39,489 bases of DNA, from the NCBI GenBank assembly GCA_009786685.1, contig WQRQ01000014.1, positions 1-39,489 of the forward strand. Direction: 5' to 3'. Positions 10,684 through 14,623 of this stretch are shown one piece after another. The DNA is from Defluviitaleaceae bacterium. Lineage in GTDB: Bacteria; Bacillota; Clostridia; Lachnospirales; WQUN01. Numbering within the stretch: the stretch's first letter is position 1; each line of letters opens with the position of its first letter. Position numbers and translations under genes: made by a program. The notes under the pieces are model-generated. The model had not been told where the DNA came from, ran no database searches, and was given only the letters and a program-made list of their open reading frames with translations.

Positions 10684-11829
10684 TCAATACCGCATAAAAT
10701 CCGAAAAATTAATCTTGGCGATTTCGTAATGTCCCTGCGGGTTTGGGTGGATTATATCAAAGTTTGCATTCATCATATCGGGTCTGTTGGAAAGGCTGCC
10801 GTAGATATCGGAGACGATAAAACCGCGTGATTGGCTTTCCATTAATATGACACGGTTTAGGCTTTGGATAAACCGCTCGGACTCGTCCGAAAGACCAAAC
10901 GACATGCCCAGCAAATCCGATGGCAGCGGATTATAAACTGTATTTACGATAACAGTGGCATACGGCGCGTTATCCTCCAGCCATTCTAAAATTTCGATAA
11001 ACTCTCTCGTAAAAATACGCACACCCGCATGTAAATCCCTTTCCATCGAAGGCGGAAGCTCCCCTGAAAACAACGCGAAAAGGCCGAGTATCTCCAACTC
11101 GGACGTACGACCAAGCATCTCGGTAACGGTGGCTTCCATAGCGTCAACTTCCGCAAAAACTTCCATTGCGCCATCAATCACAGGCGGCGCGGCGGCTATC
11201 ATATCATTAAGCCTAAAGATATCGCGTACACCAAAATTCTCCGCAAAGTAGATAACCTCGTTTGCGAAATCCAAAATATTTGCTATCGGCTCCCGTGATT
11301 CGCTCACAAAGTCCATTATTTCCCCCATAAGCCCAAAGGCCTCTCTTATAAAGTCGGTTGTCTCGCTTATAATCCCCTGCAACGAGTCGGCGTCGGGCAA
11401 ATGCTCCCAAAGCGGCGCGAGGATGTTATTGCCACCGATATTAAGCGTGATAACGCGGGCATATTGGAAATTACTAAGCTCACCGGGGCTAAGCGAATTT
11501 AAAAGCGAAAGCAAATCTGCGGTAGTATATCCGTTCACCGCCAAATTTACATACTCATTAGCAAAACCCTGCTCCCGCAACATTTCGAAAAAAACGGAAG
11601 TATGCCTATCCGCCAAAGACCAAATCCCAAACCCCTCCGATACAGAATCACCCAGCGCGATATAAACCTTACGCTCGATTATCGGGTCGGGGGCAGGTGT
11701 TTCTTCAAATACAATTTCAATATCGTTAGGCTCGTGCTCGCGTACGTCCTGCACATCCCGATTATCCCGCCGCGACCCGCATGATGTAAAAATCACAATA
11801 GCACATAGCAAAACAAAAAACTTAACCAC
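10684..11829 (-). CDS. SGNH/GDSL-type esterase lipoprotein
   Basis: 381 residues with a GTG start at 11829, eight bases after a GAGGTGA site. A lipoprotein signal (lipobox FTSC, Cys17) anchors it outside the membrane. The catalytic blocks are all visible: block I IALGDSVSEG with Ser62, block III NIGGNN near residue 130, and block V FDIIHPN with Asp358 and His361. Between blocks III and V is a roughly 100-residue helical, acidic insertion (about 150-255) not needed for the core fold. Members act on lipids, acylated sugars or peptidoglycan O-acetyl groups; the substrate is not readable. Confidence 0.88.
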   Translation of the reverse strand: MVKFFVLLCAIVIFTSCGSRRDNRDVQDVREHEPNDIEIVFEETPAPDPIIERKVYIALGDSVSEGFGIWSLADRHTSVFFEMLREQGFANEYVNLAVNGYTTADLLSLLNSLSPGELSNFQYARVITLNIGGNNILAPLWEHLPDADSLQGIISETTDFIREAFGLMGEIMDFVSESREPIANILDFANEVIYFAENFGVRDIFRLNDMIAAAPPVIDGAMEVFAEVDAMEATVTEMLGRTSELEILGLFALFSGELPPSMERDLHAGVRIFTREFIEILEWLEDNAPYATVIVNTVYNPLPSDLLGMSFGLSDESERFIQSLNRVILMESQSRGFIVSDIYGSLSNRPDMMNANFDIIHPNPQGHYEIAKINFSDFMRY

Positions 11830-11911
11830 TATAAATCACCTCATATATCACCATGATACCATACCTTGGCAAAAATTTTGACACTCGTGACAATAGAAGG
11901 AATTGTGGATT

Positions 11912-12193
11912 TTAAACTGAGTTTTTCTTGTCCATAAATACTTCCATTGTCATCAACACACCAAGGCGATAGCCATGGATAAATGTTTCTACATCTAAAA
12001 TAGCATTAGCCTCAAACCGGGCTTCCGAATACTTTATCATAAGCTCCTTTTGCTCACCTTCAAGCATGGATAGTAATTTTTCTTCACAGTCGCGGATGGT
12101 TTTTATTGTACTCTCATAGTTTAACTTTTTTTCGGTAAAGTTTAAACCGTGGTCTATGTTTTCGTTGGCAAATTTCTCTAAAATGCTTTTCAT
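11912..12193 (-). CDS. Small DUF6809-like protein
   Basis: 93 residues, mostly helical and charged. The C-terminal segment FIHGYRLGVLMTMEVFM and the N-terminal MKSILEKFANENI resemble a small family widespread in Clostridia (DUF6809, from memory); function unknown. The ATG has a strong AAGGAG site nine bases upstream. No obvious promoter lies between the start and a strong minus-strand terminator hairpin ending 28 bases upstream, so the gene is either read through an attenuator or driven by a weak promoter in that short stretch. Confidence 0.65.
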   Translation of the reverse strand: MKSILEKFANENIDHGLNFTEKKLNYESTIKTIRDCEEKLLSMLEGEQKELMIKYSEARFEANAILDVETFIHGYRLGVLMTMEVFMDKKNSV

Positions 12194-12220
12194 AATGTCG
12201 CTCCTTAGTTTTAATAGTAC

Positions 12221-12273
12221 AAAAAAAGCGCGTAGGGACGACGGTTAATAAGACACCGTCACCACCTACACGC
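12221..12273 (-). terminator. Rho-independent terminator or attenuator before the DUF6809-like gene
   Basis: Read on the minus strand, an imperfect stem of about 16 pairs (12273-12256 with 12245-12228, loop of nine) is followed at once by seven T residues (12227-12221). It lies 28 bases upstream of the start at 12193, an unusual place for a simple terminator. Confidence 0.6.
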
Positions 12274-12336
12274 AAAATTTAACGTATTAAAACAAAGGAG
12301 TATCCCAACATAAACAACACCACACCTTGCCCATGC

Positions 12337-12469
12337 TTGCGGCAAAAAGCTAAAATGTGTATAATGCCTGTTGCAATGGCAGGTTTTCCTGTGTTTGTAG
12401 GTGATGTGTGTAATCCCTACACTCGCCGTTTAGTGTCTGTCAACACTAAACGGTCGTTGCGCTTTTTTT
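12337..12469 (+). ncRNA. Candidate small RNA of about 100 nt with its promoter
   Basis: TTGCGG (12337-12342) and TATAAT (12360-12365) are 17 bases apart, a good vegetative promoter with a predicted start near 12372. The following 100 bases contain no reading frame, pair locally (GTAGG near 12397 with CCTAC near 12415; the 11-pair stem at 12426-12453) and end in seven T residues at 12463-12469. The nine-base gap between stem and T-tract is longer than usual, which lowers confidence. It does not match SRP, 6S, tmRNA or RNase P sequences that I know. Confidence 0.35.
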
Positions 12470-12578
12470 GTTGATAAAAAGTTTAGCATGATTGTAAGTT
12501 TTATGCAAGTGCCTTCCGCACTCGGTGTGCGGTTTAAATTCCCCAAAAAAGTGAAATACTACTAGCGAGGTGAAGCAA

Positions 12579-12734
12579 ATGAATGATAAAATGAAGCTGG
12601 AAATAGCCGAGGAGCTGGGTCTGCTGGAAAAAGTAAATGCCACCGGCTGGAAAAGCCTAACGGCAAAAGAAAGCGGCAGAATAGGCGGCATATTAGCCCG
12701 CCGCAAAAAGAAGATGGAAAAGGCGGTAACATAA
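12579..12734 (+). CDS. Small acid-soluble spore protein, alpha/beta type (SspF-like)
   Basis: A 51-residue protein, too short for most gene callers. The core IAEELGLLEKV, then TGWKSLTAKESGRIGG and a basic tail (ARRKKKMEKA) match the two conserved halves of minor alpha/beta-type SASPs: the ELGL segment and the E-S/A-G-R/N-I/M-G segment cut or bound in spore DNA coating. These proteins bind DNA in the forespore and protect it from damage. The ATG at 12579 follows GAGGTGA (12566-12572). Its TAA overlaps the next gene's ATG as TAATG, indicating translational coupling. Sigma-G control is expected from the family, but I see no clear promoter. Confidence 0.85.
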   Translation: MNDKMKLEIAEELGLLEKVNATGWKSLTAKESGRIGGILARRKKKMEKAVT

Positions 12735-13468
12735 TGTACCAAGGCTTTGCAAGCATGTACGACGCACTAATGCACGACGCGCCCTACGAGGTATGGGCAG
12801 CGTACATAGACGGGTTTTTGGCGGAGTGGTTTAAAAAGCCCCGTGCAGAAATCCTTGTCCTCGACCTGGCCTGCGGTACGGGCAATATAACTCTGCTCCT
12901 CGCAGACATGGGCTACGACCTCATAGGCGTAGACGTCTCGGAGGACATGCTTGCCGAGGCAAACCGCAAGGCCTACGAACAAAACGCAAAAATCCTATTT
13001 TTAGCGCAGGATATGCAGGAGCTTAACCTATACGGCACGGTGGACGCGGCTATCAGCGTATGCGACGGCTTTAGCTATATATTGGAAGAAGACGACCTGC
13101 TCACGGCATTTAAGCGTGTGCGGCTTTTTTTAAACCCCGACGGAGTTTTCATTTTTGACATGAACACTGAATATAAATTTAAGGAGCTGTTTAGCAATAA
13201 AATTTTAGAAGGAAGCGGCATTGACGGCGAAGGCTACGAATGGCAAAATGACTTCGACGAAAAAACAGGCATAAACGAATACCGCATAACATTTTTCTCC
13301 GAGAAAGAAGAGCCTTTTGAAGAGCTGCACCGCCAGCGCGCCTATTCACCCACAGTCATCACAAACCTGCTAATAGAAGCGGGCTTTTCGTCGGTAAAAA
13401 TTCGCGACGGCTACAGCAACGACCCGCTAACGCCCGAGAGCGCGAGGGTGGTGTTTATAGCTGATTAG
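12734..13468 (+). CDS. Class I SAM-dependent methyltransferase
   Basis: 244 residues. Motif I VLDLACGTGNITLLL at about 42-56, motif II acidic residue in LIGVDVSEDML at about 62-72, then AQDMQEL and the post-motif region AAISVCDGFSYI are typical of class I Rossmann methyltransferases. The N-terminal YQGFASMYDALM is the signature of the YqeM-like group in Bacillota. The substrate is not known for that group. The start overlaps the stop of the spore-protein gene (TAATG), so the two are co-translated. The usual YqeM neighbours (YqeK, RsfS) are absent here. Confidence 0.88.
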   Translation: MYQGFASMYDALMHDAPYEVWAAYIDGFLAEWFKKPRAEILVLDLACGTGNITLLLADMGYDLIGVDVSEDMLAEANRKAYEQNAKILFLAQDMQELNLYGTVDAAISVCDGFSYILEEDDLLTAFKRVRLFLNPDGVFIFDMNTEYKFKELFSNKILEGSGIDGEGYEWQNDFDEKTGINEYRITFFSEKEEPFEELHRQRAYSPTVITNLLIEAGFSSVKIRDGYSNDPLTPESARVVFIAD

Positions 13469-13480
13469 GAGAGGATATAT

Positions 13481-14623
13481 ATGAAAAAAGCATTTTTTCT
13501 CGCGTTGCTAATCTTTGCGACGCTCGCGCCAACCATAGCCTATGCAGAGGAGCTAATCCCGATAGATGCGGTACTCGTACTCGACGTAAGCCGCAGTATG
13601 CGAACGGCCGACCCGCAAAGGACATCCCGCGACGCTATGAATTTATTCATAGAAAAGCTGGAAGAAAACCGCGACAGGGTAGGGGTAATTGCCTACGCCG
13701 GAAACGTAGAAGCATACATAGAACTCTCGGAAATAAACCGCGAGCAAAAGAAAAACTTCATAAACGGACTGCCCTATGCCTCTTGGACAGACCACGGCGT
13801 AGGCCTAACAAAAGCGGTAGAAATGCTGCTCTCCCAAGCCGACCAAGCCCGTCAGGGCATAATAATCTTTCTAACAGACGGCAACATGAACGTAAACCCC
13901 GCAAGCACACGCACAAACGAAACCGCCCAGCAAGAAGTCTACGCCGCAAAGCAAGCCGCCTATGAAAACAACATCCCAATCCACACGATAGGACTAAACT
14001 TTGACGGAAACCTTGCGCTTGAATACATAAACCGCATAGCCCAAGCTACAAACGGCCTATCCTTCGAGACAGCCAACGCCGCCGACATCCCTCAAATAAT
14101 AGAAGCCTTCTTCCACGAGATGATAGCCGCCCCGCAAGCTATAGCCGAAGAAAACCCAATCCCACACATCTATGTACAAAAACCGCAAATTCAAATCCTA
14201 CCAACCGACAAAAACGCCCACTTCGAAAGAAGCACAAACATACCCGCAATAGGCACGGCGGTAATCCTCGCAATCCTAACCGTAATTTTAATAAAAACCC
14301 TAACCACACCAAAGCGTGTATTTACAGGCAAAATAATCCTCGACAAAACCACAAAAAATCTAATAGAGTACGGCAACCGCGTAACCCTCGCAAAGCTGCT
14401 GGGCGTAAACACTGCCACTCCGTTTAGCTCGGTTATCCTTGCCCCGTCGCCCACAGCACCGTCACACCTGCCGCAGCTTTTAATAAAATGCAAAAACCCC
14501 CGTGTAAAATTTACGAAGGGCTTTATCGAGCAGGATTTGCTTAAAGGTGTGTCAATCAGCCTCGGCACAGAAGCCGTTATCGAAACGGATGTCGAGCAAA
14601 TCCGCTTTAAGTATTCAGTGTAA
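13481..14623 (+). CDS. Membrane-anchored VWA-domain protein
   Basis: 380 residues with a cleavable-type signal (MKKAFFLALLIFATLAPTIAYA). A von Willebrand A domain covers about residues 28-195, with a complete metal site: DVSRS (Asp35, Ser37, Ser39), the Thr of SWTDHG and the Asp of FLTDGN. A single membrane helix lies at about 252-271 (IGTAVILAILTVILIKTL). The C-terminal 100 residues form a cytoplasmic domain of beta character that I do not recognise with certainty; an FHA-like fold is possible. The VWA part would sit outside the cell. The gene starts 12 bases after the methyltransferase with an AGGAGAGG site and overlaps the convergent glycosylase gene by 17 bases. Its role is unknown. Confidence 0.8.
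   Translation: MKKAFFLALLIFATLAPTIAYAEELIPIDAVLVLDVSRSMRTADPQRTSRDAMNLFIEKLEENRDRVGVIAYAGNVEAYIELSEINREQKKNFINGLPYASWTDHGVGLTKAVEMLLSQADQARQGIIIFLTDGNMNVNPASTRTNETAQQEVYAAKQAAYENNIPIHTIGLNFDGNLALEYINRIAQATNGLSFETANAADIPQIIEAFFHEMIAAPQAIAEENPIPHIYVQKPQIQILPTDKNAHFERSTNIPAIGTAVILAILTVILIKTLTTPKRVFTGKIILDKTTKNLIEYGNRVTLAKLLGVNTATPFSSVILAPSPTAPSHLPQLLIKCKNPRVKFTKGFIEQDLLKGVSISLGTEAVIETDVEQIRFKYSV

Follow-up and report, generated by a model that had tools for sequence, protein, structure and literature searches.

A predicted antisense-RNA transcription attenuator present in many copies on Defluviitaleaceae chromosomes

In the window, by which we mean the whole 39,489-bp stretch of DNA analysed here, the intergenic region ahead of a small DUF6809 gene is probably a chromosomal antisense-RNA transcription attenuator and one copy of a dispersed family, and it most likely represents a previously undescribed chromosomal form of antisense attenuation. 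We propose that a minus-strand promoter drives the leader of the DUF6809 gene, while a plus-strand promoter drives a structured, ~98-nt antisense RNA (Table 1). In the leader, segment 2 would capture segment 3, the 5′ arm of a terminator, and transcription would read through into the gene. The antisense RNA would bind the 5′ domain of the leader, with the variable P3 and P4 loops making the first contact; with segment 2 occupied in this way, the terminator (3:4) would form and the gene would be turned off.

Architecture of the window copy

The initial annotation described a 253-bp element with 13-bp terminal repeats, inner hairpins and an inner promoter-like site, lying between a spore-protein gene and a small gene. 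All of these were found in place: the arms ACAAAAAAAGCGC (12219-12231) and GCGCTTTTTTTGT (12459-12471) each enclose a strong hairpin, and the neighbours are an SASP alpha/beta gene and the DUF6809 gene. Among exact 13-base inverted repeats whose arms are 150-350 apart, this is the only one in the window, and five mono-nucleotide shuffles of the window gave 0, 0, 0, 0 and 1 such repeats; the fold of 12219-12475 has a z of -5.05 against dinucleotide shuffles. Once both strands are read, two promoters and two terminators are predicted, and the 13-base arms turn out to be the A-run/U-run of two outward-facing terminators together with a common GCGC. The promoter inside the element is the plus-strand site TTGCGG/17-base spacer/TATAAT, and the unit itself is larger than had been thought, with a second promoter and the regulated gene lying outside 12219-12471. 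A small-RNA locus and a structured leader, both suggested at that stage, would each be correct, on opposite strands.

Table 1. Predicted features of the cassette and its neighbours in window coordinates
Feature	Position	Strand	Details
Regulated gene, 93-aa DUF6809 protein	11912-12193	-	Pfam PF20648, E 6e-18
mRNA leader, ~280 nt, with attenuator	12194-12473	-	start inferred from -10 box; extent from promoter and start codon
Ribosome-binding site	12201-12206	-	AAGGAG
Leader intrinsic terminator (attenuator)	12221-12273	-	hairpin 12228-12273, U-run 12227-12221; -28.5 kcal/mol
Leader segment 4	12228-12244	-	CCGTCGTCCCTACGCGC; terminator 3′ arm
Leader segment 3	12256-12273	-	GCGTGTAGGTGGTGACGG; terminator 5′ arm
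Antisense-RNA promoter	12337-12365	+	-35 TTGCGG 12337-12342, 17-base spacer, -10 TATAAT 12360-12365
Antisense RNA, ~98 nt, start inferred	12372-12469	+	outer helix around three hairpins, closed by U-run 12463-12469
Leader segment 2	12391-12406	-	CATCACCTACAAACAC; proposed pre-emptor/antiterminator
P3 loop	12407-12412	+	TGTGTA; hypervariable, proposed address loop
Leader segment 1	12413-12422	-	GTGTAGGGAT; able to pair with segment 2
P4 loop	12437-12442	+	CTGTCA; hypervariable, second proposed address loop
Leader (mRNA) promoter	12480-12508	-	-35 TTGCAT 12508-12503, 17-base spacer, -10 TAAACT 12485-12480
SASP alpha/beta gene	12579-12734	+	Pfam PF00269, E 2e-7; directly right of leader promoter

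The antisense RNA is fully complementary to the first ~100 nt of the leader, its 5′ domain, because both are read from the same DNA, and it is predicted to be a structured RNA counter-transcribed to the leader from a promoter of its own. Part of the leader that it covers, segment 2, is complementary to the terminator 5′ arm. Segment 2 is a possible pairing partner for the antisense RNA as well as for the leader terminator, which explains the sequence relationship of the two terminators and the presence of a common word in segment 3 and the antisense RNA, TGTAGGTGNTG in the window copy. The leader terminator stands just ahead of the ribosome-binding site, and the start codon of the DUF6809 gene lies 34 nt past the start of the U-run. 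This leader architecture is kept across the copies aligned. Attenuation by a leader peptide was rejected: a ribosome-binding site with an ORF was found in 24 of 140 leaders, fewer than in shuffles (38-56), the window leader having one of 8 codons.

The family of copies, its RNA and its genes

A search of the genome for further copies, which the initial annotation had suggested, showed the element to be multi-copy. By blastn, the right part of the element was found in eight more places of its own genome (E at most 0.001), and in an eight-copy alignment the entire unit was conserved. A covariance model of the plus-strand RNA, R1, matched the window at 12365-12468 (88.1 bits) and gave 14 matches in the same genome and 209 in 24 of the 38 family genomes, with 1-38 per genome; in an order-wide sample, 23 of 295 genomes were positive, all of them from the same family. 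Because the element is multi-copy, the case foreseen at the outset, in which one conserved copy would amount to no more than a pair of ordinary terminators, does not arise. An exact pattern searched against named contigs hit 43 stretches, 38 of them Defluviitaleaceae MAGs, which the named matches place in the termite gut; the five others were dismissed as chance, the best R1 E there being 0.17. Defluviitaleaceae have been reported with 67 MAGs from higher termites (PMC7024585, in the part available). A broader model, R2, was positive in 12 of 391 genomes of the class and 3 of 398 of the phylum, the own genome counted in, and R3, built solely from 18 distant Clostridia copies, detected the window copy at E 2.8e-10. 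In the 26 distant copies examined, the order promoter, antisense RNA, terminator, gene is preserved. A plasmid search with three cassettes gave no match, nor did a phage search and a viral-contig search.

From the 209 family matches, 159 copies were carried forward; the terminator-based tests used 140 of them, the ORF test the 131 with enough flank and the loop-pair tests 96. The antisense promoter scores at least 13 of 18 in 151 of 157 family copies, at a near-fixed position and with a spacer of 17 in 145 of the 157. The leader promoter is conserved less than this, reaching at least 13 of 18 in the matching stretch of 113 of 158 copies, against 7 of 158 shuffled means. An intrinsic terminator comparable to that of the window, upstream of the start codon, was called in 140 of 159 leaders, a set that retains some picks that are other hairpins (L030, L065, L165 and similar); none was called in the remaining 19, or in 3 of the 26 distant copies.

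Several further observations concern the cassettes themselves. Many copies in genomes G018, G015 and G044 lie ~50-500 nt from contig ends, as if the cassette or a neighbour were a repeat that breaks assembly. At L064:1455-1557 (+), the model matches a second time (51.9 bits) on the other strand, in an overlapping position that includes the leader promoter and 5′ domain. Eight other family cassettes show weaker matches of this kind (21-32 bits), and L073 and L207 show matches with full overlap (26 bits), which may reflect a partly palindromic origin of the unit. An extra hairpin of the CCACGGGG...CCCCGTGG type is found between the leader U-run and the ribosome-binding site in L002-L007, L010, L016 and L020; many copies of the genus carry such a hairpin, and the window copy has none.

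The plus-strand RNA folds into an outer helix and three hairpins, with 97.0% of cells paired in an alignment of 63 rows (60 distinct) that is fitted to the model and so leans toward the structure. Within it, 30 of 31 pairs have changed on both sides, a result equalled by none of 500 shuffles, and shifting the partners abolishes pairing. When the 18 distant copies were aligned without the model, 94.4% of cells were paired and double changes were seen in 17 of 27 pairs. G-U cells number 222 against 9 A-C cells, the latter being those that read G-U on the leader strand, and in 158 of the 159 copies it is the plus-strand RNA that has the lower folding energy (mean -45.8 vs -34.9 kcal/mol for its complement). 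Both the G-U bias and the lower energy therefore point to a selected fold on the antisense strand.

Downstream genes were assessed by requiring a ribosome-binding site and an ORF of at least 30 aa, 8-190 nt after the start of the U-run. Of the 131 copies, 80 had such a pair on the leader strand, against 21 with one on the opposite strand, and 51 had none within 190 nt. By a stricter gene finder (n=142), the nearest gene within 500 nt was on the same strand in 58 copies and on the opposite strand in 29, with the gene far off in 33 and no gene in 22. Pfam assigned the family downstream genes to a Cu-amine-oxidase N domain, HTH_3, MazE/AbrB-like, YpsA and flagellin, others being unnamed, and in some genomes the putative targets include XRE proteins. 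At the 40 distant loci examined, small DUF6809-like proteins are frequent; the distant 98-aa proteins match the window DUF6809 protein at a profile E of 0.016 in 391 sequences, and a G309 protein matches DUF6809 in Pfam at 1e-4, below the cut-off, values that make a link between the 98-aa proteins and that of the window suggestive only. SymE is the first gene in 3 of 3 G486 copies (PF08845, E 5e-11 for one), and serine recombinases follow cassettes in G486, G352, G545 and G527 (by Pfam Resolvase for G527 and by motif for the rest). Small DUF6809-like genes together with SymE/serine-recombinase operons may be the ancestral home of the cassette. In distant Clostridia, the cassettes at L300-L302, L295, L308 and L310 precede genes for SymE, a large serine recombinase or both, which may form a mobile operon controlled by antisense RNA. 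The cassettes at L320 and L322 (G467) stand upstream of what, judged by eye, are putative phage structural genes and fragments.

The leader switch and the loops

Over the 140 copies, mean predicted energies are -9.5 kcal/mol for 1:2, -21.1 for 2:3 and -25.7 for 3:4, the 2:3 duplex value omitting loop closure. The predicted 2:3 pairing is stronger than 1:2 in 136 of the 140 and 3:4 is stronger than 2:3 in 117. The word common to segment 3 and the antisense RNA changes together in both places, to TAGGTGATG in much of the genus, CGCAGGTGATG in G004, GAAGGYGATG in G044/G045, GTGAGTGAT in G018, TGTATGG in G661 and TGTGGG in G400. Within genomes, the similarity of the terminator 5′ arm to its cognate antisense RNA is 9.40, compared with 8.86 for permuted pairs (0/5000, n=140) and 4.9-5.4 for control slices; across 13 genera, cognate similarity is 7.16 vs 5.96 for other genera (0/20,000 permutations), in a test restricted to distant copies with a called terminator (3 lacked one) and to family genomes listed in the genus table. 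These permutation numbers are not clean probabilities, because copies that descend together have common arms, and the appearance of the same new word in both arms is the stronger point. Mean duplex energy scarcely separates cognate from non-cognate pairs (-20.6 vs -19.2) and was set aside as a specificity test too blunt for the purpose; arm similarity and the permutations were used instead.

Folding of the full leaders at equilibrium gave the terminator a mean probability of 0.73 (median 0.93, 140 copies), and in just 20 of the 140 did pairing of the terminator 5′ arm with the 5′ domain exceed 0.5. With the 5′ domain masked, the mean terminator probability was 0.92; in the first 60 copies, it was 0.96 with a shuffled 5′ domain and 0.75 with the real one. 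In transcripts cut before the 3′ arm, pairing of the 5′ arm with the 5′ domain (2:3) averaged 0.60, against 0.40 for shuffled domains, a weak margin. Equilibrium folding of the leaders thus gave no clean ON state and does not by itself prove a two-state switch. Since the terminator dominates at equilibrium, the ON state must, if the model is right, be kinetic and set by the order of folding during transcription, and in these predictions it is the weakest link of the attenuation model.

The P3 loops differ almost throughout, in 13 of 13 scored copies of the own genome and 117 of 119 overall, a count made over the 13 genomes in which at least four copies were scored. Because random 6-mers would differ as well, the comparison of pairs is the better test of the loops. 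In 160 within-genome pairs with stem identity of at least 90%, loop identity was 79% for P2, 42% for P3 and 48% for P4, and in some pairs identical stems carry unrelated P3 and P4 loops. Differing loops would be expected if each antisense RNA had to find its own leader only.

Competing explanations and known systems

A MITE-like mobile element, with its ends as its sole property, was also put forward in the initial annotation. The cassette is multi-copy and dispersed, with 253 bp and terminal repeats in the window copy, and it is missing from the syntenic site of the closest syntenic relative, G005. However, no terminal repeat is common to the copies: when the two ends were compared in each of the 140 family copies whose leader terminator was called, the longest exact match measured 13 bases in the window copy alone and 4-11 in the other 139. 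Nor is the G005 site a clean empty one, as the interval between the GDSL gene and the SASP gene holds a different gene, which we read as a putative aldose epimerase. The MITE-like element was rejected on these two grounds and, with a selected RNA fold and a conserved gene orientation also against it, is scarcely credible. In G005 the upstream region of the SASP gene (12579-12734) is conserved and the interval to its left is replaced. The selected fold and the better conserved promoter on the antisense strand, with an RNA of about 100 nt ending in a terminator, would fit a stand-alone small RNA acting in trans on distant mRNAs or a protein, the minus-strand leader and its terminator being incidental. 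We consider this unlikely, given that the loops are least conserved between near-identical copies, the opposite of what a common trans target would impose, that the leader terminator and gene direction are conserved, and that the terminator arm changes along with the antisense RNA.

The SymE genes after some distant copies bring to mind SymR, which pairs with the symE 5′ UTR (PMC8167048, available part), and an antisense RNA acting on translation or mRNA decay, as in type I toxin-antitoxin systems, with the terminator as insulation. This too seems quite unlikely: the downstream genes are mostly not toxins, the region covered by the antisense RNA is the far 5′ end, not the ribosome-binding site, and the changing word common to terminator and RNA would be left unexplained. 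Assignment to type I toxin-antitoxin systems, which calls for a small toxic peptide, was dropped, the window gene being DUF6809, the genes diverse and SymE confined to some distant copies. Dominance of the terminator at equilibrium would suit an activating antisense RNA that invades the terminator hairpin or otherwise promotes read-through, and the RNA, having the word of the terminator 5′ arm, could pair with the 3′ arm too; but pairing with the cognate leader 5′ domain, to which it is perfectly complementary over ~100 nt, should dominate, and we regard activation as improbable. To our knowledge, there is no natural precedent for activation of this kind. A ligand- or protein-sensing leader of the riboswitch type, with the plus-strand RNA as a by-product, would account for a structured leader with an attenuator ahead of varied genes, yet no Rfam match was found, the fold energy and G-U bias point to the other strand and the loops are hypervariable, all of which makes it very improbable.

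At the gathering threshold, Rfam gave no match in the window; over 11000-13500 the hits were at chance level only, the trpB motif (E 8.3) being a terminator resemblance. Nine family loci gave none, and in nine distant loci the sole hit was a skipping-rope RNA with no relation to the cassette (RF02924 at L269:4019-4102 (+), 65.4 bits, ~0.9 kb from a cassette). Plasmid copy-number control RNAs (Rfam ctRNA families) were rejected as an assignment, with no Rfam match, no rep gene and no plasmid match for three cassettes. No description of the cassette was found in the open-access subset of the literature, which was searched.

Shigella icsA/RnaG is a single locus and is not known as a dispersed family. 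It resembles the attenuator proposed here in that transcription of a protein gene is attenuated by an antisense RNA (PMC5394118, available part). Antisense attenuation is known chiefly from plasmid copy control, usually with one system per replicon (PMC5703833, available part). In the pT181 repC attenuator (RNAI, pre-emptor, stem-loop IV), as here, a short counter-transcribed RNA faces an untranslated leader, the pre-emptor is complementary to the terminator 5′ arm and the terminator lies just ahead of the start codon (same source). Unlike pT181, the cassette is chromosomal, with many copies per genome ahead of varied non-replication genes, and its antisense RNA has three enclosed hairpins, hypervariable loops and no Rfam ctRNA match. 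pIP501/Inc18 repR RNAIII is likewise comparable in its leader (~320 nt), an antisense promoter midway and a terminator before the gene (PMC5703833, available part, on related staphylococcal plasmids), but it involves the CopR repressor, an XRE-type protein, and plasmid replication control. If it works as predicted, the cassette would act like a pT181/pIP501 attenuator while not belonging to those plasmid families. SymE/SymR has in common with it an antisense RNA complementary to a 5′ UTR, and SymE genes after some distant copies; SymR blocks translation, however, with no terminator switch described in the available part of PMC8167048, and most genes here are not SymE. Engineered pT181-type attenuators have been made orthogonal, in a 7 x 7 set, through altered RNA-binding regions (PMC3753616, available part), whereas here a natural series of copies has differing loops.

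We tentatively put forward, as a possibility that we hold less firmly than attenuation itself, that the family is a growing natural collection of antisense attenuators insulated from one another, an off-switch copied ahead of unrelated chromosomal genes of Clostridia, in which two loops diversify fast in each copy so that the RNA silences its own gene only. A chromosomal family of up to 38 copies per genome, with varied targets and private loops, would reveal how near-identical RNA switches avoid cross-talk, a question that synthetic biologists have addressed by engineering (PMC3753616, available part), and it would supply many natural variants for direct tests of loop specificity.
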